Positions 8,605 through 58,088 of a stretch of DNA of 64,000 nucleotides are shown piece by piece. The translations under genes and the position numbers were made by a program. The notes beneath the pieces are model-generated. The model did no database searches. It was not told the origin of the DNA and was given only the letters and a program-made list of their open reading frames with translations. The DNA comes from Meghimatium bilineatum (lineage: Eukaryota > Mollusca > Gastropoda > Stylommatophora > Philomycidae). Position 1 is the stretch's first letter, and each line of letters starts with the position of its first letter. The stretch is taken from NCBI GenBank assembly GCA_034231615.1, contig CM067309.1, forward strand, positions 22,873,965 to 22,937,964, read 5' to 3'.

Positions 8605-9004
8605 CGTTGTGTCCCAATATACCATGTACTTAACGTTCCGTTTTGTTTTTGCAGGCAGTGTCCCAATATACCATGTACTTAACGTTCTGCATTTCGTTTT
8701 GTTTTTGCAGGCAGTGTCCCAATATACCATGTACTTAACGTTTTGCATTCCGTTTTGTTTTTGCAGACAGTGTCCCAAAATACCATGTACTTAATATTCT
8801 GTTTTGTTTTTGCAGACAGTGTCCCAATATACCATGTACTTAGCGTTCTGCATTCTGTTTTGTTTTTGCAGACAGTGTTCCAATATACCACATATTGAAT
8901 GTTTAGTTTTACAGTGTCCCAATATACCACATATTGAATGTTAAGTTTTACTGCGTCCCAATATGCCACATACTGAAAGTTTTGTTTTGTTTTGCAGACA
9001 AAAT
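8605..9004 (+). repeat. Tandem array of 3' splice-site units ending at the first visible NADH dehydrogenase exon
   Basis: Eight imperfect units (spacings 39, 49 or 56 bp) share GTGTCCCAATATACCA. Five end in a GTTTTGTTTTTGCAG tract, with AG at 8654, 8710, 8766, 8815 and 8871; one ends in GTTTTACAG at 8914. The authentic acceptor TTTTGTTTTGCAG ends at 8997, and the exon begins ACAAAATGTCCAATAC, an alignable version of the repeat's ACAGTGTCCCAATAT. The array is therefore a tandem amplification of the intron end plus exon start. In the NADH dehydrogenase frame a TAA at 8942-8944 would stop translation from any upstream acceptor. Confidence 0.85.
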
Positions 9005-9198
9005 GTCCAATACAGCACACATTCAGATGTCACTAACAACAGAAAGAAATTAGTAATAATGGGAACTGGTTGGAGTAGCTACAGTGTTTTGAAATCTATT
9101 GACAAAAAGCTGTATGATGTCATTGTGGTCAGCCCCAGGAACCACTTCCTTTTTACACCTCTCTTAGCTAGCACAACAGTTGGTACTTTAGAATTCAG
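8998..9198 (+). CDS. NADH dehydrogenase exon: FAD-binding N-terminus
   Basis: Encodes ...[20 protein letters not shown] and ends GTLEF plus AG, with donor GTGAGT. It starts on the third base of a codon, so an upstream exon is required. An in-frame ATG at 8963 lies just upstream of the acceptor, inside the splice-site array. Confidence 0.93.
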
Positions 9199-21100: not shown

Positions 21101-24100
21101 CATATTATCATACAACTCAATGTTGACATTAGTACTACAGTGGATACCATCCCAATGTGGCATACCAGGAAATGAGGAGGCAGTTATGCTGGCAAAGAAT
21201 TGAGTAAAACAGAAATGAAGAGGCAGACTGGCAAAGGATGGAGCAACACAGGAACAAAAAGACCAATAAATCACCTACCAAGAAAAGAGAACCCTATAAA
21301 AGCTATGAGGAAAGTTTACCTCTCAAAACACAACTATTAATATCTAGACAGAGTTGAGCAGGTTATTATCTTCCGCATCAGAACTGGATACAACGGATTA
21401 GAAAGCTTAAATAGACTTCTTCCATCACCTCTGTGTCTATGTAGGCAAGCAGCACATATCCTGCAGGACTGCATTACACTAAACCATTTAAGGGAGGAAC
21501 ACTGGCCCACAGGTGCAGATATCCACAGAAAGCTGTATGGGAGCAATGAGGAGCTCTCAAATACAGTAGCGTACATTAAGAAAACTGGACTTGCTTTGTA
21601 GACATGTCAAACTGCGAACGAGAAATAACATCGATATTGCGTAGACATGATTTTATTTTTGTTCTTCAAGTACAATGGGATGCAACTGTAAGACTATTCC
21701 AATGTATTGATATTATTGTTTGTGTTTGTTACTAGTTCATGGTTGTATCTTTATATAGGTCAGTATTCATACCAATATTGGACCTTAATGTATATGTCCT
21801 TGTTCCATAGTTTTTTATTTCTCATTGGCATTACTGTACATTTTGTATTTTTGCTATTTATTAGTTTCATTAGTAAATAGTGGCAGCAATAAATAATAAA
21901 CAACATTAGATATACAGATGACACTGTTCTTTTAGCAGAAAGTGAACATGAACTACAAAGACTAATAGATCAAGTCAATAAATCAAGTAATGAATATGGA
22001 CTGGATATAAACATTCAAAAAACAAAAACCATGATAATCAGCAAAGACACAGAAGAACAGGAGGTAAACATAAACATACAGGGAGAGAAACTACAACAAG
22101 TAAAACAGTATCAATATCTTGGACACATAGTCACAAATGATGGCAGATGTGAAACAGAAGTTAAAAGGAGAATAGGAATGGCTAAAAGTACCTTCAATGA
22201 CATGAGGAAATTATTAATATCTAAACAAATTACAAACAAGTTAAAAATGAGAATTATAAAATGCTACATCTATTCCATATTAATGTATGGCTCAGAAACA
22301 TGGACACTAAATAAACAATTAGAAGACAAAATTGATGCCTTTGAGATGTGGGTATATAGAAGAATAGGGAGAACATCATGGAAAGAGAAGAAAACAAATA
22401 AAGAGGTGCTAAAGACACTTAATATGAAGAAAGAACTATTAAGAGAAATAAAGATCAGGCAAATAAAATACTTTGGACACATTAAAAGACATGACACCCT
22501 ATTGAAGACCTTACTTGAGGGTAAAGTCAAAGGGAAGCGAGCAAGAGGTAGGCAGAGATACAAGTGGGAGAGTAACATTACACGATGGACAGGTTACAGT
22601 CTAGCAGAGTGCACCACCAAGACAAGAGACAGGAGATGTTGGAGATACGTTGCAGCCAACCTTCGTTGCGGAGACGGCACTTGATGATGATGATGATGGC
22701 AGCAATACATTATCATAGTGATTACCATAGGTGTTACACTCCTTACTACATCATTAGTGTTTACAGCTTGAGATTGCTGTCTAGATAGGTGAAACTATCG
22801 ACTGTCTGAAGCTCTTCCCCTTTGGTTTTGAGACGAAGGTTGGAATGTGAAGTGTAAGATTTTAAAAAAAAGTAGGTTCAAAAGTTATAGAGGATTGACT
22901 TTGCTGTATGTGTTTCCCATATCTACTCTGTCACTCTCAACGCCTGCTAAAAGTACCACTCATAGCACGTAATGCTGTAGCTTCAAATGATAATTGACAG
23001 GAATCTCCAAAAATATCCACCTTGTAAACAAGACAACACAAGCCGAATTTGAACCTGTGACTTCTTGAACAGCTTAATCACTACACTAGGAAGATCCCAA
23101 AATGAGTGTAAGGTGCAGGCCTCTGTGTTGTTGGTGAAGCGAAAGTTGTTGCACCCACATATATGTTTAAAATTTGCTTTTGCTGTGACATGATCATTTA
23201 AAATACTTTCCATACCTTTTGAGAAAATGCTCTTTGGTTTGTTTTGTCTTTTTACTTAATGACTTTCTGCATGACAAAGTCAAATCATAACAACTTGGTC
23301 CAGACCAATGCAATATATATGTAATAACAGAAATAACTATATATAGTACAAACAATAAAGAGTAAATATGATTATTGATTTTGAAAAATGTTATTTAGTA
23401 GAGTTCGTTATAACAGGATGCACTATAGAGGGTCCCAGCATATATATATATGCACATAGGTTTACACACATTCCTAAGTGTTTCTGAATATGTTTTGCTC
23501 ATGAAAAAAACAGGGCTGCTCAGACACCCTTATTGCTTGCTTACATAATATAAAGATTAGGGGGAGTGTTGCCCAGCCTACATCCTGGTAACCAACAGGA
23601 GCATGAGAGAAAATGTAGAAGAATTTGTTTAAATATATGAATTTTGTGGTGAATCATCTTGAAAAAAATGGTAGTTTCTCAGTTTTTGAATTGTTTCACA
23701 GATTTTGACTGACCGGTTTCTTCGAGTAAAAGATGAACCGAGCAAGAATGTTTTTGCTATAGGAGACTGTGCCGATATATCAGATATGTCGCTGCCTTGT
23801 ACTGCACAGGTAACCCACTCAGATGTTGTGTGTCCTCACTTTTAATATCTTTTTGTTTGTGCATTCTCAAACTCCTTCAGATTAGCAAAGTCCAGAAAAC
23901 AGAATGTGTTAATTATGGAATAGAACATCCAGAATAGGATATGCTACCACTTTTTTTTTGTGGTGGGGAGGAGACTAAACACCTATGGGTATCCATAGTG
24001 TTTGAAGTCAGTTAAATATCGATTACATTTATTTGTATATCTTGTTTTGTACTTTCATCATCATTAAGTTCTGTCTCTGTAACTCAGGTTGGCTGCAGCA

Positions 24101-27100: not shown

Positions 27101-30100
27101 GGACTATGGCACATTCCGTTGCTTGATATGCAGTAATACTATGTCCTGTCAGAATTTTGGTCGTAATACTGTGCTTGTCAGAATGTTGGTAACTCCTTTG
27201 ATCCACATTCTTCTTGGTCTTCTTCTGTATCTTAGTGTTTCCATTTCATGTTGTGTGCTCTTGTTGCTGGCCAATAAGGGTTCATTCTCATTAGATGGAA
27301 GAACCATTTCAATCTCTGTTTTTCAATATATTTGACCACTGATGTTGTTCCAACAGTTCTTGTAATCGCCTCATTTCTCACATGATCTCTTCTTGTTCTG
27401 TGTGCTGCTTTTCTTAGACATCTCATTTCACATGTAGTAAGCTTTCTCTCTTGTTCTTTACTTAGTGTCTATGTCTGACATTGATAAGACAATGTTGGGA
27501 TGAATATTGAATTAATGTTTTCCCTTTGGTTTCTTTTGGGATAGATGTGTGTTTCAAAATTTGATGTAGGTTCCGATAGCTGATAGATTTTCTAAATTTC
27601 TTGCATAATACCTAGAGCAGATTTCTGTAAACACTGAAGTCCCCAGTTTTCTGGGCCTGTCATAGTTTCATCCTTGAATGAGCATTTAAAATAACAATAA
27701 CAGTGATTGCTAGAAATGTAGAGTTTCAGAATGTATATGATATCAGAAACTTAGAACTGGTTTTTTCACAGCTCGCTGCAGCAGCAAAAATTAAAAAAAC
27801 ACACCCCTCAAAAGAACTAAACATGCACTCTAAAAACAAACTCTACCACATTCCCAAAATAAAGAAACACGCACTGCCCGCGTAATAATCTACTCGTATT
27901 CCAATGTAATTTCCGGTACAAGTTCTCTCCCTTTACATTGATTTCTATTTCGCAAAAACAACAGTTTTGTTAAATTAGTAGGACCCACGTTCTAGGAAAG
28001 TTCCCTAATTCTTAACAGATGTCTGTAGTACTTGTTTTCAAAAGCCTGAATCCTTTTTTCATGTTTGCTTTTTGTTTCTAACTTTCACATTCATATAAAA
28101 GTATACTTAGCACTAGCGATCTGAATGAATCATATTCAGCCTTGCCATGGCAGCCATTGCCATTCGTCTTAGCTTAATCTCATTTCCAGAGTTGCCATCA
28201 TCACATATTTGAGACCCACGATATTTGAAGGTGGTAATTTCCTCATGCTGACGACACAGTTCTCAAGAACAAATTGAGATGGTCTAAAGCAAATGTTACT
28301 TACTATCAACAAACACAGTGAAACCCAAAACCTGTTCTTAAATATGAAAAAAAAAATTATGATAACAGATAAAGTGAAAGTGCAACCAGTATTTGGGCAC
28401 AAACATATATAGCTCAAGAGACTACGCTGTAGACATCAAGAGAATTGCAATGGCGACATTGAAACTTGCCCAAGTGAAATCTCTCGGCAAGGTACCAGCA
28501 GCAGAGCCAAACTATGTATGATCAAAACATGCATATTTCCTGTGACAATATACGGTTGTGAGGAAAGGACAATAAAAAAATAAAACAGCAGGAAAGAGAA
28601 TTGCTGTTTTTGAAATGAGATGCTACAGAAGAATTTTATGTATACCATGGACAGCTAAAGACAAATAAAGAAATGTTAAGACCAATAGACGTCAAAGAGG
28701 ACTGACTCCTTAAACAAGAAAGCTGTGGTTTTTTTTGGTCATATAGAGATGTAACAGCATGGAAAGATTAATAGCTGAAGGCAGAGTTAACTCAACTGTG
28801 CGACGATGGCACAGTGACATATCAGATTGCTTAAACATGTCTCTAGCTGAAGCAGGTCAACTCTCCCAGAATCCATAAGGAAGACCAAGTTCTGTAAAGA
28901 GTATGTCCCATAATGATGATTATAAACTTCAAGTTTGTGACTGTTTAACCAGATATTTCTGGGATCTTGTTTGGCATCATTAGTCACCAATATTTTGTTG
29001 TTATCAATGCTAATTTCCATGCCGTATTTTCCAGTTGAAGTGAGTTCCAGGTGTTCAGATTCGGAATCAGCCAAGAGATCTATATCATTAGCATAACACA
29101 AGTTGCAAAGTGGCCTACCACCAATAGTTATTGATGTCTGGTGAACTTGTAATGCCTCCTGCATTATATATTCAAGATATATGTTAAAAAGTACTAGGGA
29201 AAGTATGCAATCCTGACACACTCCTATATCTGTCTTGAAAAATTCACCAATGTCATTATTTATGAAAACAGCACTGCTTGTACCTTTATACAATACTTCA
29301 ATAACGTCTATGGTGTATGTATAGACGTTATATTGCCTCAGTATCTACGGTAGACCATGGTGCCACAAACGATCAAATGCCTTTGTGAAATCAATGAAAT
29401 TATGATACAGAACATGTTGATGTTGTAAATCCTATTCTATTAATATTTTGAGGTTAAAAATCATGTTCTGTGGCACTTCTGTTTCTACAGAAACCAGCCA
29501 GTTCTTCTGCTAACAGTTCCTCTGATTAAGCATGTATGTTCTGTGGCACTTCTGTTTCTACAGAAACCAGCCAGTTCTTCTGCTAACAGTTCCTCTGATT
29601 AAGCATGTATGTTCTGTGGCACTTCTGTTTCTACAGAAACCAGCCAGTTCTTCTGCTAACAGTTCCTCTGATTAAGCATGTATGTTCTGTGGCACTTCTG
29701 TTTCTACAGAAACCAGCCAGTTCTTCTGCTAACAGTTCCTCTGATTAAGCATGTATTCTTTTAAGAATGATCTTTATCATCACCTTGTTAGAATGAGTGA
29801 TTAGATTCATAGTTCTGTAATTATGGCACAGTTTCAGGTTGTCTTTCTTAGATAGAAGAAGCACATAAGATTGTGTCATTTTCTAGGCCATGTTTTTTCG
29901 GGCAGATGGCTGTCATAGCAATGGTCAATTCTTTCCTGCTCATTTGTGCAGATACTCCAGTGTAACGTTTCCATGTGCAGAATTTTACTCTGTGGCACCC
30001 AAATCCTCTCCGAATCTTGACTTATCGACAATAAGAATAAGACACGGCTGTTATTCTACGCCATTTTGGCTGGAAGTCAATAATTTTTACAAAATGGTAG

Positions 30101-39996: not shown

Positions 39997-40229
39997 CTAT
40001 GAATAAGTGGTGGCGATCGTAGCTTTAGCTACCACAGCTGGCGTGACCTTTTCTCTAAGCTGAGCAGGAAGTGCATTCCGAATTGAATCATGGATGTACT
40101 TTGGTGAGTATTTATTAGAAAAGTGGACCAAAACAATATGTCCCACATCCTTGAAAATCTCTGCATTTTGTGCAATCTCCAAAAGATGTGTATGACCAAA
40201 GTCTTTTGCCTTCTGAATCATATTTTTAC
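39997..40229 (-). CDS. tRNase Z-like exon 5 (last)
   Basis: Acceptor CCTTTAG. Encodes KNMIQKAKDFGHTHLLEIAQ and HIVLVHFSNKYSPKYIHDSI to a TAG at 39997-39999. HFSNKY carries the motif V metal-ligand His. Confidence 0.93.
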
Positions 40230-43200
40230 CTAAAGGACAGTAATAAAAATGGATTAATAAAGCAATAAATAACTGCTGGTTTAAACTTACATTTCTAATT
40301 TAATCCTGTTACAACGAATCCGGCTTTAACACGTTTCTTTAACGACACTTTTCAAAACCCATGATTATTTTCATCTTTGCCCCATTTTTTTTTTAACCAT
40401 TATAAAAAATTCATATAAACGAAATATCTCTCTATAGTGCATGAAATTTGCATCCAAATATAAAAAAAGGCTCTGGACTTGCTCTCTTGAAATTTGCATC
40501 TACAAAAAAAGTACAGGCTCTCGACTTGTGACCAGCATGTGTGTTTCAAAAGTTGCTTCTTGAGATATTCAACCGCAAACAGTGTGGCAATTGTTACTGG
40601 TGGCAGTGCATGTAGGCTGTTTTTTGTCAATTATACTTTTCACTTCGCGGTTTGTGTCCACGACAGGTTGGGCCAGGGTGACAGATTGGGACATTTGACT
40701 GTTCCTGTAATTTTCATTGGTCACTGTGTATAATTTGTGCCGAAAGCCAATAAAAATCACAGGAATAGGTAGAATTAGTAATTTTAGAATGTTTACTGAA
40801 GCTTTTGTCATATGTGAGCATGAGTCTGGTATAAGAAAACCACAATAGTAGAGTTGGGCCCGGGTTTGTCCACCCTCTTAGTCAATGTACCATTCACCAA
40901 AATCGTGACGACTGTGTCCAAGTCTACACATATCTCGTAGCACCACAAGGGACTAGAAGCATGTTCTCGATCTGAACAGTACTTCAGTTCCGATTTCCAT
41001 GTATCGATTTCTCCATTCTATTTGCATGTGACGCTGCCCTCTGCCGTTTTGCTGCCAGCTCATTGTACTCACTATGTTATCCTTTGGGAAACTTGCGCAT
41101 GACTCAATATACGTGATCACATCTATCCATATCGGGACATCGACATTGGCTGCTCCTCCAATGCATCTGCATCACTGTGTGTCGACAGTGCCGCTGTCTG
41201 TTTTGCTGCAGAGGTGACAGAGATATTGTTTATTGTATTTCAGTCCATTCTCATTCCATCTGCAGCTTCCACATTCAAGGACATGATCTATAAAAGTGTT
41301 GGCCAGGAACACAGCATGAGCCGCTATATTTCTAGATCCAGTTATCTGCTAACCATGGGTCAACACGAGCGCAATGCAGATCCCTTTGCACCCCATGCTG
41401 ACAGTCAGCTATGACCTCTCTGACCAATATAGTTCTGTTCATCATATAGATTGGATCCAAATAGCACTTACAATTACTTTGCTTTCCTCAATTGACAAAG
41501 AACTATTACTTAGGATACCCATGACCTTCGGATTATTGAAATACAGTAGTAGGATCGTGTTCATCTCTAGTTCACTGACCGTCTTATGCAGTTAAGTCCC
41601 ATTTAGGGGTTAAGTTTCTAACTTCCACCGAAGCATTCTTGTAGCAGTACAATGGCCCTACTAAATTTCAGCAGGATGTATTCCAGAAAACAGAATTGTG
41701 TTGTGTCAATATTTTATGCAAAGGTCCAATATCCTACTTCATCGGTACTACAGTAAAGGTAGATCCCATGGCAACAAACTTCCGTCGGGGATGAATATAA
41801 CTCTTTATGTACTAAGCCATAGCAACTATTAGTTGGGGTAGCCAGTTCCTGTCCTTGCTGTCGTTACATCCCGTAACTAATGCACCAGGTACACATTTAC
41901 AGCTGAGTCGACTGGAGGAGTGGAGTGGTTGTGTCAAGTGAGAAATCACAACGTGGATTTTTTGTTTTTGTTTGACATGGTTTCGAACCTAGCACGTTGC
42001 AGCCCGGTGATAACAAGAAATCTCACTATCAACTACGCAACAGCACTTTTCCATTGGTACTAAACCCCATATAAATTCAAATTAATTCTTACAAGCTTCT
42101 ATAATAAATTTTTTACTATTCTAAGCTCATTGTGTCTACAGATAATGGCAACATTTCATAATAACAAACATACCAATATGGTCATCCAGGTAGGTAGCCT
42201 CTGTTATCAGAAGTTTGACTTTAAGAAGATCTGGGTTTGGTGGGTTTGTGAAAATATCAAAAACAGTATCTCCTGAAAAAAATAAAATAACATGTAGGTA
42301 ACTGTTTTAATGTCATGACTAGCTGTAGATCCTTACAAGTGATAATACAGAACTTGAAGTAATATAGTTTATATTTACGATTCACTCCCTACGGAGCAAA
42401 GGTTTTCAATCTCTTCCATCTTGTTCTATCCTTTCTGCTGAAGACAGATGTGTCAAGCCATTGGTGCAAATAAAACAGTGACACATTGCATTTCCATTCT
42501 CTGGACTACATCCTGCTGGAAATCTAGTAGGATCATGGTCCTGCTTATAGGGAGATCCAGCGGGAGTTTGAGAATGTATGCTGAAGAAGAAGATATTATC
42601 AAAAATAGAAAAGTTAAGTTAACTGAGACAAGCACATATTTCTTAGTTGTTATTTTTTTTTTCAACATTAATTCAAGATTCTAGACAGCATTTTTTAAAA
42701 ATAAATTAGGATCCTACAAGTTAAGACTCATATAGTGGGCATCTGTGGTTATGTCGATAGTGACGCAAGACAGCGGTAAACGGTCAAGTACTTGTTACCA
42801 TGGTTTGCTTTGAGCTTGGTGGCCAGCATGTAAGTGCGAGAACCAGTTTTCCCAAGTGACTGGCCTACTCTACTAGCGATATGATTACTGATATCCACCA
42901 TTTGGTTCAAGTATTAAAAACTGTGATCGCATTTATTACTAATGATGAAATCGGATGTGTCAGACCATTAGCACTAATAAAATTATGACAATACATTTTC
43001 ATTCTATGGAATACATCCAGCTGAAAACCTAGTAGGACTATATTGTCCTGCTATAAGAGAAAGGAGAGCTGGTGGGAGTGTGAGAGTGAACGAATAAAAA
43101 CAACTCATACGTTATTTATGGACCTCTTTATGCGTCTTCTGACAAAATGTATTTTTCAGCATAACTTACTTCTGGTACATACAGCACTCACCACAATAAG

Positions 43201-46200
43201 CTACTTCTGGTACATACAACACTCACCACAATGAGCTACTTCTGGTACATACAGCACTTACCACAATAAGCTACTTCTGGTACATACAGCACTCAACACA
43301 ATAAGCTACTTCTGGTACATACAGCACTCAACACAATAAGCTACTTCTGGTACATACAGCACTCAACACAATAAGCTACTTCTGGTACATACAGCACTCA
43401 ACACAATAAGCTACTTCTGGTACATACAGCACTCAACACAATAAGCTACTTCTGGTACATACAGCACTCAACACAATAAGCTACTTCTGGTACATACAGC
43501 ACTCAACACAATAAGCTACTTCTGGTACATACAGCACTCACCACAATAAGCTACTTCTGGTACATACAGCACTCAACACAATAAACTACTTCTGGTACAT
43601 ACAGCACTTACCACAATAAGCTACTTCTGGTACATACAGCACTTACCACAATAAGCTACTTCTGGTACATACAGCACTTACCACAATAAGCTACTTCTGG
43701 TACATACAGCACTCAACACAATAAGCTACTTCTGGTACATACAGCACTCACCACAATAAGCTACTTCTGGTACATACAGCACTCAACACAATAAGCTACT
43801 TCTAGTACATACAGCACTTACCACAACAAGCTTCTAGTACATACAGCACTTACCACAACAAGCTTCTAGTACATACAGCACTTACCACAATAAGCTACTT
43901 CTGGTACATACAGCACTCAACACAATAAGCTACTTCTGGTACATACAGCACTCAACACAATAAGCTACTTCTGGTACATACAGCACTCAACACAATAAGC
44001 TACTTCTGGTACATACAGCACTCACCACAATAAGCTACTTCTGGTACATACAGCACTCAACACAATAAGCTACTTCTAGTACATACAGCACTTACCACAA
44101 CAAGCTTCTAGTACATACAGCACTTACCACAACAAGCTTCTAGTACATACAGCACTTACCACAATAAGCTACTTCTGGTACATACAGCACTCAACACAAT
44201 AAGCTACTTCTGGTACATACAGCACTCAACACAATAAGCTACTTCTGGTACATACAGCACTCAACACAATAAGCTACTTCTGGTACATACAGCACTCAAC
44301 ACAATAAGCTACTTCTGGTACATACAGCACTCAACACAATAAGCTACTTCTGGTACATACAGCACTCAACACAATAAGCTACTTCTGGTACATACAGCAC
44401 TCAACACAATAAGCTACTTCTGGTACATACAGCACTCAACACAATAAGCTACTTCTGGTACATACAGCACTCAACACAATAAGCTACTTCTGGTACATAC
44501 AGCACTCAACACAATAAGCTACTTCTGGTACATACAGCACTCAACACAATAAGCTACTTCTGGTACATACAGCACTCAACACAATAAGCTACTTCTGGTA
44601 CATACAGCACTCACCACAATAAGCTACTTCTGGTACATACAGCACTCAACACAATAAACTACTTCTGGTACATACAGCACTCAACACAATAAACTACTTC
44701 TGGTACATACAGCACTTACCACAATAAGCTACTTCTGGTACATACAGCACTTACCACAATAAGCTACTTCTGGTACATACAGCACTTACCACAATAAGCT
44801 ACTTCTGGTACATACAGCACTCAACACAATAAGCTACTTCTGGTACATACAGCACTCACCACAATAAGCTACTTCTGGTACATACAGCACTCAACACAAT
44901 AAGCTACTTCTGGTACATACAGCACTCAACACAATAAGCTACTTCTGGTACATACAGCACTCACTACAATAAGCTACTTCTGGTACATACAGCACTCAAC
45001 ACAATAAGCTACTTCTGGTACATACAGCACTCACCACAATAAGCTACTTCTGGTACATACAGCACTCAACACAATAAGTTACTTCTGGTACATACAGCAC
45101 TCACCACAATAAGCTACTTCTGGTACATACAGCACTCAACACAATAAGCTACTTCTGGTACATACAGCACTCAACACAATAAGCTACTTCTGGTACATAC
45201 AGCACTCAACACAATAAGCTACTTCTGGTACATACAGCACTCAACACAATAAGCTACTTCTGGTACATACAGCACTCACCACAATAAGCTACTTCTGGTA
45301 CATACAGCACTCAACACAATAAGCTACTTCTGGTACATACAGCACTCAACACAATAAGCTACTTCTGGTACATACAGCACTCACTACAATAAGCTACTTC
45401 TAGTACATACAGCACTCATCACAATAAGTTACTTCTGGTACATACAGCACTCACCACAATAAGTTACTTCTGGTACATACAGCACCCAACACAATAAGCT
45501 ACTTCTGGTACATACAGCACTCACCACAATAAGTTACTTCTGGTACATACAGCACTCAACACAATAAGCTACTTCTGGTACATACAGCACTCAACACAAT
45601 AAGCTACTTCTAGTACATACAGCACTCATCACAATAAGTTACTTCTGGTACATACAGCACTCACCACAATAAGTTACTTCTGGTACATACAGCACTCAAC
45701 ACAATAAGCTACTTCTAGTACATACAGCACTCACCACAATAAGCTACTTCTGGTACATACAGCACTCAACACAATAAGTTACTTCTGGTACATACAGCAC
45801 TTACCACAATAAGTTACTTCTGGTACATACAGCACTTACCACAATAAGTTACTTCTGGTACATACAGCACTTACCACAATAAGTTACTTCTGGTACATAC
45901 AGCACTTACCACAATAAGTTACTTCTGGTACATACAGCACTCACTACAATAAGCTACTTCTAGTACATACAGCACTCATCACAATAAGTTACTTCTGGTA
46001 CATACAGCACTCAACACAATAAGCTACTTCTAGTACATACAGCACTCACCACAATAAGCTACTTCTGGTACATACAGCACTTACCACAATAAGTTACTTC
46101 TGGTACATACAGCACTTACCACAATAAGTTACTTCTAGTACATACAGCACTCAACACAATAAGTTACTTCTGGTACATACAGCACTTACCACAATAAGCT

Positions 46201-49200
46201 ACTTCTGGTACATACAGCACTTACCACAATAAGTTACTTCTGGTACATACAGCACTTACCACAATAAGCTACTTCTGGTACATACAGCACTCATCACAAT
46301 AAGTTACTTCTGGTACATACAGCACTCAACACAATAAGCTACTTCTAGTACATACAGCACTCACCACAATAAGCTACTTCTGGTACATACAGCACTCAAC
46401 ACAATAAGTTACTTCTGGTACATACAGCACTCAACACAATAAGCTACTTCTAGTACATACAGCACTCACCACAATAAGCTACTTCTGGTACATACAGCAC
46501 TCAACACAATAAGCTACTTCTGGTACATACAGCACTCAACACAATAAGCTACTTCTGGTACATACAGCACTCAACACAATAAGCTACTTCTGGTACATAC
46601 AGCACTCAACACAATAAGCTACTTCTGGTACATACAGCACTCAACACAATAAGCTACTTCTGGTACATACAGCACTCAACACAATAAGCTACTTCTGGTA
46701 CATACAGCACTCAACACAATAAGCTACTTCTGGTACATACAGCACTCAACACAATAAGTTACTTCTGGTACATACAGCACTTACCACAATAAGCTACTTC
46801 TGGTACATACAGCACTTACCACAATAAGCTACTTCTGGTACATACAGCACTCAACACAATAAGCTACTTCTGGTACATACAGCACTTACCACAATAAGTT
46901 ACTTCTGGTACATACAGCACTCACTACAATAAGCTACTTCTAGTACATACAGCACTCATCACAATAAGTTACTTCTGGTACATACAGCACTCAACACAAT
47001 AAGCTACTTCTGGTACATACAGCACTCAACACAATAAGTTACTTCTGGTACATACAGCACTTACCACAATAAGCTACTTCTGGTACATACAGCACTTACC
47101 ACAATAAGCTACTTCTAGTACATACAGCACTCATCACAATAAGTTACTTCTGGTACATACAGCACTCAACACAATAAGTTACTTCTGGTACATACAGCAC
47201 TTACCACAATAAGCTACTTCTGGTACATACAGCACTCAACACAATAAGTTACTTCTGGTACATACAGCACTTACCACAATAAGCTACTTCTGGTACATAC
47301 AGCACTCACCACAATAAGTTACTTCTGGTACATACAGCACTTACCACAATAAGCTACTTCTGGTACATACAGCACTCAACACAATAAGTTACTTCTGGTA
47401 CATACAGCACTCAACACAATAAGTTACTTCTGGTACATACAGCACTTACCACAACAAGCTTCTAGTACATACAGCACTTACCACAATAAGTTACTTCTGG
47501 TACATACAGCACTCAACACAATAAGTTACTTCTGGTACATACAGCAGTTACCACAACAAGCTTCTAGTACATACAGCACTTACCACAATAAGCTACTTCT
47601 GGTACATACAGCACTTACCACAACAAGCTTCTAGTACATACAGCACTTACCACAATAAGCTACTTCTGGTACATACAGCACTTACCACAATAAGTTACTT
47701 CTGGTACATACAGCACTCAACACAATAAGTTACTTCTGGTACATACAGCACTCAACACAATAAGTTACTTCTGGTACATACAGCACTCAACACAATAAGC
47801 TACTTCTGGTACATACAGCACTCAACACAATAAGATACTTCTGGTACATACAGCACTCAACACAATAAGCTACTTCTGGTACATACAGCACTCAACACAA
47901 TAAGCTACTTCTGGTACATACAGCACTCAACACAATAAGATACTTCTGGTACATACAGCACTCAACACAATAAGCTACTTCTGGTACATACAGCACTCAA
48001 CACAATAAGCTACTTCTGGTACATACAGCACTCAACACAATAAGTTACTTCTGGTACATACAGCACTTACCACAACAAGCTTCTAGTACATACAGCACTT
48101 ACCACAATAAGCTACTTCTGGTACATACAGCACTTACCACAATAAGTTACTTCTGGTACATACAGCACTCAACACAATAAGTTACTTCTGGTACATACAG
48201 CACTCAACACAATAAGCTACTTCTGGTACATACAGCACTTACCACAACAAGCTTCTAGTACATACAGCACTTACCACAATAAGCTACTTCTGGTACATAC
48301 ACCACTTACCACAATAAGCTACTTCTGGTACATACAGCACTCAACACAATAAGCTACTTCTGGTACATACAGCACTCAACACAATAAGCTACTTCTGGTA
48401 CATACAGCACTCAACACAATAAGTTACTTCTGGTACATACAGCACTTACCACAACAATCTTCTAGTACATACAGCACTTACCACAATAAGCTACTTCTGG
48501 TACATACAGCACTTACCACAATAAGCTACTTCTGGTACATACAGCACTTACCACAATAAGCTACTTCTGGTACATACAGCACTCAACACAATAAGCTACT
48601 TCTGGTACATACAGCACTTACCACAATAAGCTACTTCTGGTACATACAGCACTCAACACAATAAGATACTTCTGGTACATACAGCACTTACCACAATAAG
48701 CTACTTCTGGTACATACAGCACTTACCACAATAAGCTACTTCTGGTACATACAGCACTCAACACAATAAGCTACTTCTGGTACATACAGCACTTACCACA
48801 ATAAGCTACTTCTGGTACATACAGCACTCAACACAATAAGCTACTTCTGGTACATACAGCACTCAACACAATAAACTACTTCTGGTACATACAGCACTCA
48901 ACACAATACGTTACTTCTGGTACATACAACACTCACCACAATAAGCTATTTCTGGCGTAACAGTCAGATCATGAATCTCAGTGCCTTGCCGATGCAGGGC
49001 TGCAACCTCAAAGCCTTGTTTGCCTCGATATTCTTGTTTCAAAGTTTTCTCCTCCTTGTACACAATATATCCTTGACTGGCAATTCGGTGAATTGTTGGG
49101 AAAGCTTTCACAAAATACCGACTATTCAGCTGCAGATAAATATATGAAATGTGAATAATTAATTAAATTTACTCAGAATTCTGTAATGTTTCTTCCACAT

Positions 49201-52200
49201 TCATTTCTTCAGTGTATGGTGCTCTGGTATTAACATTTGCTTTTTTTGTGCATGAAAGGTCCTCGTTTTGTTTCATTCATGAGCCACTCAATTTTATACA
49301 GAAATCAGTCATGAGGATGGAAGTTGAGTTTGTTACTGCGACTTACATGACTGAAACTATTTACTAAGGCGCTCTTCTGCATTCGTTCTAAAACTCCTGC
49401 ATATTATCAGGATGTAGTCCGGAGAATGAAATTGCAACTTTGCTGCATTATCTGTACCTTTCGGCCTGACACATCCGACTTCCGCATGGCTTCTGTTTCA
49501 CTTTGGTCATGTATGGGATGGGAAAGTAAACCCCACATCATAACCTCCTTAGTCTCCTCTTATGACATGCATGGAAGGCAAGAAGTGTTGCTATTCTATA
49601 CTCCTCTTTTGGGCACTGGCAACACACCTATCTATTGTCTTACTGCAATCTATCTATCTATTGTCTTACTCTGTTTTTGCTGTAAGGCATCGCAGGACTG
49701 AATGACGATCAGTTTTCAGGCTATGGCATGTTTAGCTGCTTGATGTGCAGAAATATTGTGACAATTCAGAATGTCTGTAACTCCTTCAATCCACCTTCTT
49801 TTTGGTCTTCCTCTGTATCTTGCTATTTCCATTTTCATGTTGTATGCTCTTGTCGCTGGCCAATACGGGTTCATTATCATTAAGTGGTTGAACCATTTCA
49901 GTCTCTGTTCTTTAATATACTTGACCACAAACCTTCCAACAGTTCTTGTAATCCCTTCAGTCCTCACATAATCTTTTTTTGTTCTGCTTGCTGCATTTTT
50001 TTAAAATCTCATTTCACACATATTAAGCTACCGGTATCTGTCTTGTTCATTAGTTAGTCTTTGATAGATTTCCTATTTTCTGAAGCTCCTGCACAATATC
50101 TAGTGCAGTTTATGTGAACACTCAAATCCCCTACCAGTTCTTGCACAATAACTAGAGCAGGTTTATATGAATACTCAAAAACCCTACCAGTTTGTTAGAC
50201 CTGTCATAGTTTCATCCTTAATCATTCTCAAACTCCCACTGGGTCTCTCTTGTAGCAGGACCATGGCCCAACTAGATTTCCAACAGTATGTAGTCCAGAG
50301 AATGGAAATGCGATGTGTCGCTATTTTATTTGCGCCAATGTCCAGACACACCCATCTTGTGTGGTAATTTCAATTAAATTGAATGATTACTTAAAATATT
50401 CACCTAATAATCTGCATTAATTATATAAAATCTCTGGCTGTATTTTTTAAACTATTATTTGAACATATTTTTCGCCAACAGTTTTTCCACATGATTGATG
50501 CTGACAGAACTTGTGTGGCTGTTACTATCTACAATTCGCCACAGGAATGTTGCCATGAACCAGAAACATATGGGCTGAGCTAGCGGCATCTAACGTTCAT
50601 TCTCAAACTCTCGCTGGATCTCTCTTGCAGCAGGACATTGATCTTACTATATATTTCGGCAGAATGTAGTTCAGGAAATCCTGGATTGATAACATCAAGG
50701 AATGGTCTGGTTGTGGTTTTTCTATACTTCTCCGAATGGCTGAGGATTGAGTTGTTTGGACAGCTTTTTGTGCTGATATATCCAGTGTGATACATCAAAA
50801 TTCTACTAGCAATATAGTTACTGATATTCACCATTCAGTGCAAGTAGTATAGTAAAAATTGTGAACGCATTTATTACTAATGATGAAATCGGATGTGTCA
50901 GACCATTAGAGCAAATAAAATGATGACAACATATTTTCATTCTATGGAATACATCCAGCTGAAAACCTAGTAGGACTATATTGTCCTGTGAGTAAGACAG
51001 AAAGAGCTGGTGGAAGTGTGAGAGTGAATTTAGTTACACAAATTCTCCTATCTAGGAAGCAAATTAACACTCGACGGTGATGTCATGACAGAATTTACAA
51101 TTCGCATTGCAAGTGCCTTTAACAGGCTGTCTAATATCTGGAGTGCAAAGTCAATCAGCACACGCACGAAAATGCGCTTATTTAATTCCTGCGTTATTCC
51201 GGTGCTATCATATGGATGTGAGAGCTGGAAAAGCTCTTTATCTTCAGAAAAGAAATTACTGAGTTTCGAGAACAAATGTCTTTGTAGGATAACTAATACC
51301 CATTAGAGTGAATTCAAATCGAATGAAAAAATCAGAGAAGAGATAAATTTCATCACAGATATTATCAGAAAACGCTGTTGGTCCTACATCGGGCATGTCC
51401 TATGAGCAGACATCAACAGAATACACCACCATTCTCTTGAATGGATACCTACAGGCAAAAGAGTCAGGGGTAGACCAAAAGAAACACTCAAAGAACAATA
51501 CTTAGACAAAGTAAAATAATCAATATACATACTATTCAAGAACTGCACAGAATAGCTTTGAACAGACAGAATTGGAGAGATTTGACCTCTGCCCTATGCG
51601 CTTACTTCAGCGCAAAAGGAAAATGAATCCAGTGTGAGACCCTAACGGGTTATGGGTATTATTAGTTCAGAGAATGGAAATGTGTTGAGTCTCCATTTTA
51701 TTTGCGACAACAGCCAGACACATCTATCTTCGGTTAGGTTCTAGTATTAAAAACATTTGAAGATTAATAAATCACTAAAGATCTCTGACCACAAGAGACC
51801 AGTAGGTTATTTCATTCTTACCCGAACTGTATCTCCTTCAACCATTTCTTGTATGTTGGCACTGCCTAGAAGCTCTGGAGTCTGGGCCATCTCACAATAA
51901 GCTCGCACGATGGCTTGTAATGGCTGAACCATATATGGTGGCACAAAGTATCGAGCAGGTTTCATTCCAGCTAGTTCTCTTTTAGACATATGACTGGTAA
52001 CAGCTCCAACATGATCAATGTGCCCATGTCTGGGGGAAACATCAAAATAGTGAAGCAGCAAATTTTTTTCTGACGCAAAAAAAATGTGAGTTATGTCTAC
52101 TCCACAATTTAAACTCGTTTAAAATATATTTTAAACATGATATAGCTCCTCTTCTTCTGTATTCATTCTCAAACTCCTGCAGATTATCAGGATGTAGTCC

Positions 52201-55200: not shown

Positions 55201-58088
55201 ATTTTAAGCCAGAAATGGAAGCTCTCAAGAAAGCAGCAGAAACTATCTTACAACACAAAGAACATGTACATAGGAATATTGTACTACTAACAGATGCACT
55301 CTCTGTCATAACAGCACTGAAGCTACACAAGAACACCAAACTGAATGAATTGAGGGCAGTTCTAGTTCAGTTTCACAATAATTTCCAGAGAGTGGTGACC
55401 CAGTGGATATGTAGCATTGAACATTGCGACAACACTGTAACATTGAAGGAAATGAAGTTAATAGATAGACTGGCCAAAGAATGAGGGAATTTACCTCAAG
55501 AAGACTATCTGGTCAGTTATGAAGAAGTGAAGACTATCATTAAAGGCAACTGTAACAAAAAGTGGAAAGAAGACCACACCAAATATAATGTAGATAATCT
55601 ACCAACTATGGGTATTACCAACTATCAGGAAAAGACCAAGTTATTCTGCTGTGCCTCAGAAATGGTCACAACAAAATGAGACATCACCTGTACATCAAAT
55701 TCAAAATAGGTATAACTGGCCGTTGCCATTGAAACGTTGCAAATATGACAGCAGAACATATCTTACAAGTATGTCCGCAGTATGCATACCTGACGAACAA
55801 GACATGGCCCACCCCATCGAAGAGAAACTGTATGGCACAGCAAAAATTCTAAAACAGACAGCAGCCTTCTTCTTCTTCACTGTTCTTCAGTCAGATCTCA
55901 GGTTACAGTGCCAATAGCTTCAATGAATTGTTATTTGTTTCAGTTCATCCATGGAACCCCTCAGGTCTGGAAGTAGGCCATATTTTCTCCCTCTCTTCTT
56001 GGTAGAGTTGACAGGCATGTTTTCTGCAGTCTTTGGGCTCAGTCCACAGGTCTGTCTCGCCAATCTTCAGCTTTTGGAACATGTGACTTCTCAGTCTGTT
56101 GTGGCCAGTTCGTAGTCTGAAGATGATGGTTTGTTCAGACAGCAGCCTAAATCATAGAATCCAGAGTCCCAACCTGACTGAGTGATGATCGCAGAAGAAA
56201 AAGAAGAATCTATGAGCTTTACTACAGAAAATTCATGATTTGAGATGTCACTTTCAATTTTTTTTTAGTGAAAAGAGATCCACGGAAAAGAATTGCTAAT
56301 CTTTACTCTCTCTTTAGACCCTGAAAAGAGTTGTTCTCACGCTGGTTTATTGTGACAGGTTATCAGCCCATTCTCCAACTTGTCCTTAGTCGTGACATGC
56401 CTGGAAAGAAGAGGTGGCCTCATTCTTTGCACCCTGAACTAGAAGCCCAAGCCCCAGTTGCATCGTTGGTCATGAAAGATAAGTATAATTGTAGATTATT
56501 GTTAATTGAGGGGTGCAAAGGGAACGCATTGCTCTAGGCGGACCCAGGGTTAGCAGATAACCAAGATCCCAAATGTACCTCCACGCGGTGCACCCTGGAA
56601 ACAGAAATACAGCAGCCCGTGCTGATTCTGGCCAAATCATTTGGGGATCGTGTCCGAGAATGTGGAGGTAGCAGATGGAAAGAGATTTGACTGCACAAGA
56701 GACAGACAATATCTCCGACACCACCAGCAGCACCACATATAGCGACACTGTCGACATACAGTGAAGCTAGTCAGTCCAGTCCGAACATTGGAGGGGCGGC
56801 CAATGTAAAATGCACGTAAAAGTAAATGCATATCGAGAGACAAATATATTTCATACAGAGTACAATGAAACGGCAGAACAGCGCTAGAGGGCAGCGCGAA
56901 CTGCAAATAGAAAGTGAAAAGTCCCTAGGAAAGGGGAACTACAAGCTCGAGACGGGCTTCTAGTTACCAGAGTTCCTTACAGGCAGAGACCCAGACCCAT
57001 CCATTGGCGTTTGGTAAAGCAAGAAGACCTAACCCAACTCTACTGTCAGGTTTTCCTACACCGGAAATACACTTGAAGAGAGAAAGGGTTCAGTACCTGA
57101 TGGGCTCAGGCGCTATTGGGACAAGGACGCTCAGCTCGAGAACGCCTTGCTCTCAAACGCGTGGTGTGAGACTCGAACTTGGACAAGGGGTACACGATGT
57201 CGGTGAATGACTCCTCGGCTAAGAGGGCGAAAGAGCCAGGGTCCAACTCCTCTGCTGAGTCTTCCCCTTAAGGAACCAGGCTCACGGATGAGAAACGGTT
57301 CAGTACCCAATGGGCACAGGCACAGCACGTCCAATTACATGAGGCAAGTTCATAGACAGTGGAACACCTCGTTCGAGTCAGACAAGAGCAAAAAATCGTC
57401 TGGGCGAAGAGTCTCCACTACGCGTGCCTGGAGACAGATATAGAGGCTGTCACAGGCTAAGGGTAGCCCACCCGAATTGTCAAGGCATGCCGAAATCGGA
57501 TGTGCTAGGCCTACAAGGCGCATAACGGTGGCACAACGTAATCGCGCTCCCGGCGGAAATCGCACGGATATCCGTGATGGTTACAATGGAGCGAACGAAA
57601 AAAAAACAAACAAACAAATTGTTAATTGAAAAAATAAGTAATAATTAATCAAACAAAAGAAAAGCTTACGTGATGAAGATATTTGGTGCCCGAACACTCT
57701 CTGTAACTGCTACACCCATGTCAAACGCCAGTTGTACATCTTCAGACTTGATAATAATACAACTTTCTACCCCTGAAACACTCCATGCAAAAACACTATA
57801 CTGTCCAATGTGCAGCCATCCATCAGTTTCTCCTACACTATACAGATGGGATTCTCTCGGCATGAGATCATCTTTCGCCTGAAGTTCATTCATAGCTGTA
57901 ACAGCTAACGTTGGGGTGGACAATTTCCACCTTCTCAATTGAACTAACGGTAACGTATTCCTTTGCGGTCTCAAACAGGATACCACATCCCTACCACTAA
58001 TTCTGACACATGAAAAATTGCGAGATCTGGTGAACAATATTCCACATGTCTTCAAGAAATTATGTAACTGATGTAATCCAGAACTCAT
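39997..58088 (-). CDS. tRNase Z-like metallo-beta-lactamase protein, five exons, complete
   Basis: Exons in transcript order: 58088-57670, 52029-51822, 49129-48937, 42272-42174, 40229-39997, giving 383 residues; all junctions are GT-AG and in frame. The MBL fold is complete: FITHGHIDHVGA (HxHxDH at 141-146), TIHRIASQGY with His223, AYCGDT with Asp275, LLITEATY at 295-301, and HFSNKY with His342. This is the layout of short-form tRNase Z, which removes 3' trailers from pre-tRNAs, and it most resembles the plant nuclear/organellar type (the FVPP and PSQGY-like elements). The N-terminus is rich in Arg and poor in acidic residues (MSSGLHQLHNFLKTCGILFT), suggesting mitochondrial import. A TTG lies in frame just upstream, but the ATG at 58088 is the natural start. 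Introns total about 17 kb. Catalytic residues are intact. It could act on another RNA or a small molecule; the HFS and GDT motifs favour tRNase Z. Confidence 0.9.
40230..40899. other. Intron 4 spacer
   Basis: AT-rich; nothing recognised. Confidence 0.35.
40900..41405 (-). repeat. R1100 retroposon, 5' part (diverged)
   Basis: Reverse complement of the 5' half of 56510-57617: TTTGCACCCCATG at the outer end, AGTTATCTGCTAACCATGGG, TGACGCTGCCCTCTGCCGTT. The 3' half is missing or too diverged. Confidence 0.65.
41640..41745 (-). repeat. R150 fragment
   Basis: GTACAATGGCCCTACTAAAT, AGCAGGATGTATTCCAGAAA, GTGTTGTGTCAATATTTTAT. Confidence 0.65.
41755..42050 (-). repeat. tRNA-derived SINE (third family)
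   Basis: On the minus strand the head reads GCTGTTGCGTAGTTGATAGT (A-box region) and GCTAGGTTCGAAACCATG (B box). The body continues through CGACTCAGCTGTAAATGTGT and TGGCTTAGTACATAAAGAGT to GTTGCCATGGGATCTACC. Confidence 0.8.
42174..42272 (-). CDS. tRNase Z-like exon 4
   Basis: Acceptor TTTTTTTCAG, donor GTATGT. Completes the split Gly of the GDT motif and encodes DTVFDIFTNPPNPDLLKVKL then LITEATYLDDHI. The motif IV metal-ligand Asp is its first full codon. Confidence 0.93.
42435..42592 (+). repeat. R150 interspersed repeat
   Basis: GAAGACAGATGTGTCAAGCC, TTTCCATTCTCTGGACTACA, GCTGAAGAAGAAG. Confidence 0.85.
42593..42867. other. Intron 3 spacer
   Basis: Nothing recognised. Confidence 0.35.
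42868..43095 (+). repeat. R150 plus flank, duplicated at 50804-51030
   Basis: TCTACTAGCGATATGATTAC, GCATTTATTACTAATGATGA, AATCGGATGTGTCAGACC and the R150 body agree with 50804-51030 beyond the R150 boundaries. The unit is therefore larger than R150, or the segment was duplicated between two introns of one gene. Confidence 0.7.
43163..48955 (-). repeat. 5.8-kb minisatellite of a 35-bp 5' splice-site unit (about 165 copies)
   Basis: On the gene's strand the unit is CCAGAAGTAGCTTATTGTG (exon-like, 19 nt) followed by a GTGAGTGCTGTATGTA-type 16-nt intron start. The unit at the exon edge is the real one: CCAGAAATAGCTTATTGTG ends exon 3 at 48937 and GTGAGTGTTGTATGTA begins the intron. Units differ mainly at the donor: GTGAGT (original), GTAAGT (stronger consensus), TTGAGT (first intron base G to T; the commonest class by eye) and ATGAGT (G to A). 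Some units are 32 bp. The array makes up most of the 6.66-kb intron 3. There are no unique spacers, so it is not a CRISPR-like array. Confidence 0.97.
48937..49129 (-). CDS. tRNase Z-like exon 3
   Basis: Acceptor TTTATCTGCAG, donor GTGAGT. Encodes LNSRYFVKAFPTIHRIASQG ... TVTPEIAYC and the first base of Gly274. Its last 19 bases are the seed of the 35-bp array. Reading through the donor meets TAA after eight codons. Confidence 0.94.
49130..49377. other. Intron 2 spacer
   Basis: Nothing recognised. Confidence 0.35.
49378..49625 (-). repeat. R230 interspersed repeat
   Basis: CTAAAACTCCTGC, GGATGTAGTCCGGAGAATG, CTTTCGGCCTGACACATCCG, TATGACATGCATGGAAGGCA. Confidence 0.82.
49640..50215 (-). mobile_element. 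LINE 3'-end fragment
   Basis: The minus strand encodes [39 protein letters not shown] and MEIARYRGRPKRRWIEGVTD. The 3' end has no clear tail. Confidence 0.78.
50216..50360 (-). repeat. R150 interspersed repeat
   Basis: TCATTCTCAAACTCCCACTG, GTCTCTCTTGTAGCAGGACC, GAGAATGGAAATGCGATGTG. Confidence 0.85.
50361..50590. other. Intron 2 spacer
   Basis: Nothing recognised. Confidence 0.3.
50591..50680 (-). repeat. R150 fragment
   Basis: GTTCATTCTCAAACTCTCGC, TGGATCTCTCTTGCAGCAGG. Confidence 0.65.
50680..50800 (+). mobile_element. RTE LINE tail fragment
   Basis: Encodes SWIDNIKEWSGCGFSILLRM and AED-like residues, matching 16350-16545. Confidence 0.6.
50804..51030 (+). repeat. R150 plus flank, partner of 42868-43095
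   Basis: See 42868-43095; identical words include GCATTTATTACTAATGATGA and AATCGGATGTGTCAGACCAT. Confidence 0.7.
51035..51655 (+). mobile_element. LINE 3'-end fragment
   Basis: Encodes YLGSKLTLDGDVMTEFTIRI, SCVIPVLSYGCESWKSSL, ENKCLCRITNTH, then after a stop SYIGHVL and HHSLEWIPTGKRVRGRPKET, RTE- or CR1-like. The tail reads CCTAACGGGTTATGG. Confidence 0.78.
51656..51740 (-). repeat. R150 fragment
   Basis: AGAGAATGGAAATGTGTTGA, CATTTTATTTGCGACAACAG. Confidence 0.6.
51822..52029 (-). CDS. tRNase Z-like exon 2: HxHxDH active-site exon
   Basis: Acceptor TTTCCCCCAG, donor GTAAGA. Opens with the second part of Thr140, then HGHIDHVGAVTSHMSKREL and PARYFVPPYMVQPLQAIVRA, ending EGDTVR in phase 0. 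Confidence 0.95.
52160..52415 (-). repeat. R230 interspersed repeat
   Basis: CATTCTCAAACTCCTGCAGA, GGATGTAGTCCGAAGAACAT, CTTATGACGTGAATGGAAGG. Confidence 0.82.
52440..52700 (+). mobile_element. LINE 3'-end fragment
   Basis: Encodes FGHIKRQHGNIYNGKHGNRA, PKRQRIRDISDCLHIPLAAA and GQLIQN, related to 28250-28915. Confidence 0.7.
52705..52850 (-). repeat. R230 fragment
   Basis: GTGCCTTTCGGCCTGGCACA, CTTACGACATGTATGGCAAG. Confidence 0.6.
52851..53397. other. Intron 1 spacer
   Basis: Nothing I can support. A CGACATTTTGATCCGTTC word near 52950 loosely resembles the reverse of the hammerhead-like motifs. Confidence 0.3.
53398..53655 (+). repeat. tRNA-derived SINE (second family)
   Basis: Head: CTCTAGCGTAGTGGTTAAAC (A box) and GGGTTTGAATCCGGC (B box). 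Body: GTCTTGTATACAAGGTGAAT, TGGAGATCCCTGTGG, GTGCTATGAGTGGTACTCTC. Minus partner at 22910-23100. Confidence 0.85.
53700..54269 (+). other. GC-richer segment with a 13-bp hairpin, possible LINE 5' region
   Basis: CCAGATATGGAGG (53852-53864) and its exact complement (53873-53885) form a hairpin with an 8-base loop. The segment precedes the RNase H LINE and may be that element's 5' untranslated region with the coding middle deleted. No conserved protein is seen. Confidence 0.4.
54270..56200 (+). mobile_element. RNase H-LINE (I/Nimb-like), 3' half, with a nested LINE
   Basis: Encodes LHKLESWTEKWLLTINEKKT (after reverse transcriptase motif C), KLAGTNWGADSKIFKSLYTG, RPALEYGIAAWC, then RNase H pieces (LLTDALSVITALKLH, KLIDRLAKE) and KLYGTAKILKQTAA. 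Many stops. The last bases resume after the nested insertion at 56136 and end in a GAAGAAAAAGAAGAA tail near 56192-56206. Confidence 0.82.
55868..56135 (-). mobile_element. Nested LINE 3' end with 13-bp target-site duplication
   Basis: CAGACAGCAGCCT at 55855-55867 and 56136-56148 brackets a minus-strand fragment encoding TIIFRLRTGHNRLRSHMFQK and LKIGETDL, with a GAAGAAGAA tail at its 3' end (TTCTTCTTC on plus). Same lineage as its host element. Confidence 0.85.
56207..56497. other. Intron 1 spacer with possible R230 debris
   Basis: 56325-56430 contains weak R230-like words (GACATGCCTGGAAAGAAGAG). Otherwise unrecognised. Confidence 0.3.
56510..57617 (+). mobile_element. R1100 retroposon, complete copy with 12-bp target-site duplication
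   Basis: Flanked by ATTGTTAATTGA at 56498-56509 and 57618-57629. Starts GGGTGCAAAGGGAACGCATT and ends in an A-rich AAACAAACAAAC tail. Aligns with 35421-36520 over its length. Shared translated stretch GTRLTDEKRFSTQWAQ.. near 57270-57330 with stops nearby. No recognised protein domain. Confidence 0.88.
57670..58088 (-). CDS. tRNase Z-like exon 1
   Basis: 139 codons plus two bases; donor GTAAGC. N-terminal 55 residues are Arg-rich (RSRNFSCVRISGRDVVSCLR), then the MBL N-terminal strands (YSVFAWSVSGVESCIIIKSE, VQLAFDMGVAVTESVRAPNI). Start ATG at 58088-58086. Confidence 0.92.

Follow-up and report, generated by a model that had tools for sequence, protein, structure and literature searches.

In this study, we analyzed a 64,000-nucleotide stretch of the genome of the mollusc Meghimatium bilineatum (assembly GCA_034231615.1, contig CM067309.1, positions 22,873,965 to 22,937,964 of the forward strand), hereafter called the window, and identified in intron 3 of a tRNase Z-like gene a 5.8-kb tandem array whose unit repeats the exon 3/intron 3 junction of that gene. 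Minisatellite-like tandem duplications of exon-intron boundaries have been described in amphioxus under the name of mirages (PMC3087553, PMC3902484), and the array appears to be an exceptionally large case of this little-known but already described kind of repeat. We consider it a neutral mirage without a function of its own, tolerated since the exon-attached copy still serves exon 3, and we assign this explanation a probability of roughly 85%. The initial annotation, made from the letters of the window, had recognized the array and the source of its unit; that the phenomenon is a described one, and that it recurs in the same genome, was missed there.

The host gene and the exon 3/intron 3 junction

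The tRNase Z-like gene lies on the minus strand and has five exons, in which every join is GT/AG and a single frame of 383 amino acids is maintained. Its features are as follows; in splice-site and peptide motifs, a slash marks the junction.

57670-58088, minus strand: exon 1, taken to begin at the first ATG in the open frame; donor ATCAC/GTAAGC
51822-52029, minus strand: exon 2, which together with the last bases of exon 1 encodes the HGHIDH metal-binding motif
48937-49129, minus strand: exon 3; acceptor TCTGCAG/CTGAAT, donor GCTTATTGTG/GTGAGT, with homology across the junction
48931-48939, minus strand: true 5' splice site of intron 3, GTG/GTGAGT
42273-48936, minus strand: intron 3, 6,664 bases, of which the array makes up 86.6%
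42174-42272, minus strand: exon 4, beginning with the remainder of the GDT motif; acceptor TTTTTTTCAG/GAGATACTG
39997-40229, minus strand: exon 5, including the stop codon

The spliced 383-amino-acid model matched rice RNase ZS1 (PDB 7xgt) with an E value of 1.9e-47. The metallo-beta-lactamase motif HxHxDH is present as HGHIDH, and the score against Pfam PF12706 was barely over the cut-off (28.2 bits vs. 27). Because the alignment to rice RNase ZS1 passes across the exon 3/4 junction (PEIAYCG/DT vs. PEIAFTGDT), exon 3 truly ends at 48937. The junction encodes the start of the GDT motif, as stated in the initial annotation. The codon split by the junction is number 274. Reading on past the true donor gives GECCMYQK followed by TAA, that is, eight codons with the glycine included, as had been predicted. 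This TAA precedes the first inner donor register, and hence the frame is closed before the inner units; the use of any inner donor would add GECCMYQK and an in-frame stop, and only the exon-proximal donor works for protein, again in accordance with the prediction. A search of the genome of the same species gave five matches, which correspond one by one to the five exons, and did not find a second gene copy. A paralogous copy as a control intron was therefore dropped.

Structure, uniqueness, and turnover of the array

Tandem Repeats Finder (TRF) placed the array at 43167-48955 with a period of 35, 166.3 copies, and 94% matches, close to the minisatellite of about 165 copies at 43163-48955 first proposed. 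Splitting this interval on the minus strand gave 166 units of 22 types; most of them (156) are 35 bp long, and the remaining 10 are 32 bp long. The unit joins the final 19 bases of exon 3 to the initial 16 bases of intron 3 (CCAGAAATAGCTTATTGTG/GTGAGTGTTGTATGTA), a composition on which the unit split, the gene model, and the initial annotation agree. The last 19 bases of exon 3 (48937-48955) fall within the outermost unit, which is the real exon 3/intron 3 junction and departs from the array consensus at three of its 35 positions. The other 165 units are extra, and the array occupies 5,770 bases of intron 3. An exact pattern for the main unit types had 141 matches in the 1.61-Gb genome, and all 141 were in the window. 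The array is therefore a local amplification, and a dispersed satellite family was rejected, since this exact pattern of the main unit types is confined to the tRNase Z-like locus.

Identical units are clustered along the array, with a lag-1 identity of 0.30 compared with a maximum of 0.27 in 500 shuffles. States of the exon-side end are also found again at the distal end:

43167-43236, minus strand: two distal units, both in the GTGAG donor state found in the exon-side unit; the GTGTTG state of that unit is shared by the penultimate one as well

The GTGAGTGTTG state is limited to two units, the exon-side one and the penultimate distal one, and the interior units are derived. Thus, the interior is homogenized and the ends of the cluster are exempt, as is characteristic of mirages. 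End-shared states and clustering of identical units are the usual marks of minisatellite turnover. A C at +8 is found in 163 of the 166 units. The block from +9 to +17 is free of variants and was considered as a conserved element; such a free run arose in 8% of simulations and is not significant. No Rfam family matched at the gathering threshold (0 matches). An interspersed repeat (like GAAGACAGATGTGTCAAGCCATTGGTGCAAATA) is located at about 42440-42590 and 42945-43100, with one copy directly adjoining the distal end of the array, and is also present at locus L035 described below.

Donor states across the units

At the donor register, the 166 units comprise 85 GTG/TTGAGT, 50 GTG/GTAAGT, and 19 GTG/GTGAGT (the true site among them), together with the rarer forms GTG/ATGAGT (6), GTA/GTGAGT (4), GTG/GTAACT (1), and GTG/TTGGGT (1). 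GT is kept in 74 units (73 of the 165 extra ones) and lost in 92. The ladder of decoy donors described in the initial annotation is thus only about half correct: 73 extra units keep GT, but the majority, the 92 without it, are not donor decoys. Among the 35 unit positions, +1 varies most (G 74, T 86, A 6), which is the opposite of what is expected under selection for donors. Live donors make up 4 of the first 10 extra units next to the exon and 69 of the other 155 (Fisher P=1), and the three units closest to the true donor are all dead as donors. With neither enrichment nor thinning of live donors towards the exon, there is no visible selection for or against them. In a human matrix, 68 of the 73 live inner donors (50 GTG/GTAAGT and 18 GTG/GTGAGT) score at or above the true site, and five score lower. 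The pairing with U1 runs the other way for the more frequent of these forms: GTG/GTAAGT (-10.2) is slightly weaker than the true GTG/GTGAGT (-11.1). The true donor is not singled out by sequence alone.

Junction-spanning arrays at other loci

Outside the window, we sampled 120 exons from matches in the genome: 50 of 51 for CCT/Cpn60, 60 of 67 for myosin, and 10 of 123 for kinesin. An in-frame stop interrupts the matched stretch in 27 of these exon intervals, which were retained. Junctions were scored where the site score exceeded 4, which gave 201 (91 donors and 110 acceptors), none of them from the window. TRF arrays lay over automatically placed junctions at seven loci, three of which (L073, L101, and L137, the last with two arrays) were excluded for site scores of 4 or less (-0.3, 0.2, and 3.2). 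Junction-spanning arrays were accordingly present at 4 of the 201 sampled junctions (95% confidence interval 0.5-5.0%, computed for 4/200), and 22 of the 201 had an array within 70 bp.

One of the four is a CCT donor (L071; G000 C1, about 10.772 Mb), where 40 exon and 22 intron bases are present in four near-identical copies around 1307-1556; the true junction and the first extra junction are identical at 48 of 48 bases. The same intron contains an additional 37-bp array of at least 1.19 kb. At a myosin donor (L095, 397-602), the exon end SNYLLEK/gtaatc is repeated 5.4 times with nested unit lengths of 35 and 43 bp, and a second myosin donor (L126) has a 14-bp unit repeated 2.1 times. The fourth array (x3.9) covers a myosin acceptor (L133). 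The inner copies are live in three of three cases at L071, in four at L095 (a further partial copy is dead), and in one at L126, and AG is lost at the register in all three inner copies at L133.

Arrays beginning about 25-50 bases into the intron beside a donor were observed at L035 (1715-2012), L110 (393-596), and L123 (458-649), and these are possibly older mirages. The L035 units have GTAAGGATGAT, which resembles the true donor. Arrays are also present near both exon edges of L006, one of a set of other metallo-lactamase exons (L001-L006) outside the 120.

A second candidate lies in the window itself, at an acceptor:

8609-8997, plus strand: probable second mirage, at the acceptor of NDH-2 exon A, with the array itself at 8609-8988; five units TTTTGTTTTTGCAG/(A/G)CAGTG plus 39-bp variants
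8998-9198, plus strand: exon A of a gene for an alternative NADH dehydrogenase (NDH-2), with the true acceptor at 8998

The units of this array read TTTTGTTTTTGCAG/ACAGTGTCCC, repeating the acceptor and the first exon bases of exon A within the region 8609-9030, and the exon A acceptor is probably its outermost, diverged unit. None of 2000 shuffles gave a junction alignment as good, and the in-register exon similarity of the best of the five units was equalled by 2 of 19,827 random placements. When the 20 junctions of the window were scored for self-similarity, the exon 3 donor reached 71 and the NDH-2 acceptor 36, and the rest were between 13 and 20.

The same self-similarity test, applied to 48 bases centred on each junction, compared 200 sampled junctions from the CCT, myosin, and kinesin genes (the L124 acceptor was removed for low complexity) with 299 intronic control points taken from the 50 CCT loci only. 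At a score of 50 or more, 3 of the 200 junctions and 8 of the 299 control points were positive (Fisher P=0.54); at 30 or more, the counts were 8 and 9, respectively. L126, with its 14-bp unit, is among the four TRF cases and falls below these score thresholds. Array coverage in the CCT loci was 2.7% within 50 bp of an exon, 4.1% at 50-250 bp, 3.5% at 250-700 bp, and 5.9% at 700-1450 bp, some arrays being counted twice as the overlapping loci L035/L061 and L046/L050 show the same ones. A genome rich in intronic minisatellites, which occasionally take in a junction, suffices as an explanation.

Proposed origin of the array and alternative explanations

We propose that the array arose by tandem duplication of a 35-bp segment straddling the 5' splice site of exon 3 and then expanded to 166 units within intron 3, through slippage or unequal exchange. 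Presumably, splicing relies on the outermost donor, attached to the exon, for three reasons: it comes first in transcription, exon definition with it yields exon 3 at the usual length, and no other choice keeps the frame. The inner copies would leave with intron 3 and drift freely, which would account for the loss of the donor GT in more than half of them, possibly with some splicing noise removed by nonsense-mediated decay. Judging by the intact reading frame, regular splicing would be expected to be undisturbed. The anatomy of the array, the source and genome-wide uniqueness of its unit, the intact gene on either side, the clustering of identical units, the ancestral states at the ends, and the similar arrays elsewhere were observed directly, and this explanation builds on them. 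Neutrality was also one of the options offered by the initial annotation, and it is the best supported of them.

Several observations weigh against this explanation. The 50 GTG/GTAAGT units slightly outscore the true GTG/GTGAGT in the human matrix (9.62 vs. 9.16), and leakage into inner donors is therefore plausible. The array, at 5.8 kb, far exceeds the next-longest array of the window (535 bp), and the largest array in 211 kb of sampled loci is at least 1,193 bp, reaching the end of its locus; neutrality alone leaves this extreme length unexplained. The NDH-2 case is weaker than the others, since clear exon similarity is found in only one of the five units, and for the exon bases without the acceptor 9 of 2000 shuffles and, among 2,966 random stretches, 39 did as well. 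Finally, 2 of the 18 arrays in the window end at a junction, which is above random placement (P=0.039); this test used 22 window junctions, including two approximate ends of exon G and with the end of NDH-2 exon A set at 9199 and not 9198, and we did not weight it heavily.

The last observation is what hints at duplication directed to splice sites, for example by repair at stalled spliceosomes or R-loops, which would preferentially seed arrays at junctions. Pooled TRF coverage is likewise higher in the stretch 25-200 bp past a donor (7.5-11.8%) than at distances over 250 bp (4.5%). This contrast mixes genes, however, since only the CCT loci extend that far, and within those loci coverage is lowest beside exons. 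As junctions were not enriched over intronic control points, seeding aimed at splice sites is hinted at by the window alone and unsupported in the larger sample; we consider it quite improbable. Even less probable is that the array or its copy number is an artefact of assembly. Exact repeats inside the array extend to 419 bp overlapping and 347 bp non-overlapping, so that short reads alone are incapable of sizing it. The assembly is nevertheless one of large contigs (32 contigs, 1.61 Gb), the 22 unit types follow a non-random order with 10 shorter units and states common to both ends, and smaller arrays of the same kind occur at other loci.

The alternative we regard as least unlikely, although still with low probability, takes the array for a multiple-donor minisatellite like that of human IFI6: some inner units would act as alternative 5' splice sites, and array length or type could set gene output. 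Because every inner donor lies past the TAA that follows after eight codons, their use would yield substrates of nonsense-mediated decay. The 73 live inner donors and their scores favour such a role, and IFI6 itself employs two downstream repeat units as donors (PMC4526556). Against it, 92 of the 165 extra units, including the three nearest the true donor, are dead, the donors show no pattern of selection, the closed reading frame leaves no room for inner-unit protein variants, and amphioxus mirages are reported with regular splicing (PMC3087553, PMC3902484). The other role suggested earlier, in which the ladder of sites retains the U1 small nuclear ribonucleoprotein (snRNP) or slows splicing, strikes us as the most far-fetched of all. 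A long series of U1-complementary sites does lie inside a single intron, but over half of the units have lost theirs, and variation within the unit is greatest at +1. Moreover, this is a single locus, and a few transcripts with about 73 sites each would hardly titrate the U1 of a cell; against roughly a million particles, their share would be negligible. With the +1 base so variable and no gradient of live donors, the roles as U1 sink, kinetic modulator, or source of decay isoforms put forward in the initial annotation are unsupported, and a neutral mirage is retained as the explanation of the array.

Implications

We tentatively suggest, at somewhat less than even odds, that mirages are not confined to amphioxus and that about 2% of the splice junctions of this mollusc may be tandemly copied, up to 166-fold; leaky use of inner copies may also give rise to decay isoforms through which expression is tuned. 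If it is true that the exon-attached copy always wins, even among copies identical at 48 of 48 bases as at L071, splice-site choice would have to rest on position (transcribed first or exon definition) and not on sequence. The choice of the spliceosome among identical neighbouring sites has mostly been studied via engineered duplications. This genome offers natural duplicates in ordinary genes, with donors and acceptors that have from 1 to 165 extra copies, both live and dead. The tRNase Z-like array also illustrates kilobase-scale intron growth through a tandem repeat instead of a transposon.

Other features of the window and genome

Two further minisatellites of the window, at 16880-17414 and 29463-29756, have 3'-splice-site-like units (TTCATTTCATTTAG and CTTCTGTTTCTACAG) with no known exon directly beside them. 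They were dropped as junction arrays, as the comparison was by eye only and showed no homology to a known junction. An intronless deaminase-like open frame of 187 amino acids at 516-1079, with PF14437 and PF00383, probably encodes a tRNA adenosine deaminase. Remnants of retrotransposons without long terminal repeats (non-LTR), with endonuclease or reverse transcriptase domains, were found at three places:

2867-4393, minus strand: non-LTR retrotransposon remnant
12252-13268, plus strand: non-LTR retrotransposon remnant
21893-22684, plus strand: non-LTR retrotransposon remnant

Elsewhere in the genome, the haemocyanin domain PF14830, which is typical of molluscs, had 50 matches, which form two clusters on separate contigs (C15:48.69-49.24 Mb and C22:44.15-44.27 Mb), a pattern such as a large duplication might leave.

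Comparison with known systems

The tRNase Z-like array is a mirage: its unit contains a real exon end and the adjoining intron, the units are arranged head-to-tail, and the authentic junction is at the edge. The primary paper on the Adh3 mirage is reportedly that of Canestro in 2002. In amphioxus, mirages have been described in Adh3, the globins BflGb6 and BflGb9, troponin C, and PGBD5; their lengths are unstable, and the cluster boundaries escape homogenization (PMC3087553, PMC3902484). The Adh3 data and reverse transcription polymerase chain reaction (RT-PCR) of the globins suggest that regular splicing is unaffected, although many copies retain AG/GT (PMC3087553, PMC3902484). The arrays reported here share with them a unit lying across the true junction, an authentic copy attached to the exon with further copies running into the intron, a splice signal that is kept in some copies and lost in others, unhomogenized cluster ends, and the involvement of both 5' and 3' boundaries. 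They differ in host and size: the present array belongs to a mollusc and, with its 166 units of 35 bp, reaches 5.8 kb, whereas in amphioxus BflGb6 has either 6 or 3 units of 150-160 bp, depending on the haplotype, BflGb9 a 157-bp duplicate, and Adh3 units of 10-72 bp. RT-PCR and length differences are reported there for amphioxus, and the mollusc array is known from the sequence of one assembly. No report of a mirage in a mollusc, or of one this long, was recognized among the matches listed in a literature search that was judged mostly from titles and the openings of abstracts and covered few subscription journals.

Other published repeats resemble the array in part. Human segmental duplications contain internal tandem repeats at exon-intron boundaries, possibly giving new introns (PMC2812944); these also have minisatellite units, of about 30 bp, but they average about four units and belong to recently duplicated genes, whereas here there are 166 units and no second gene copy was found in the genome search. 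Intron gain via tandem genomic duplication, in which a new intron is made out of an exonic AGGT, likewise starts with a tandem duplication holding splice signals (PMC3443670); the mollusc array instead lengthens an existing intron. Intronic minisatellites of C. elegans, such as CeRep25B, have been linked to multiple alternative splicing (PMC4039745). CeRep25B resembles the array in being next to an exon, with an effect on splicing suggested, but it is a dispersed family not shown there to be built from a splice junction of its host, and the mollusc unit is unique to one locus.

The human IFI6 (6-16/G1P3) minisatellite has units of about 12 bp and is said to have been shown by Turri in 1995 to supply multiple splice donors. 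Like the tRNase Z-like array, it lies at the edge of an exon and has 5' splice sites within its tandem units. Two of its downstream units serve as donors, giving three mRNA species (PMC4526556). In the tRNase Z-like gene, by contrast, the inner donors are predicted from sequence, and their use would truncate the protein.

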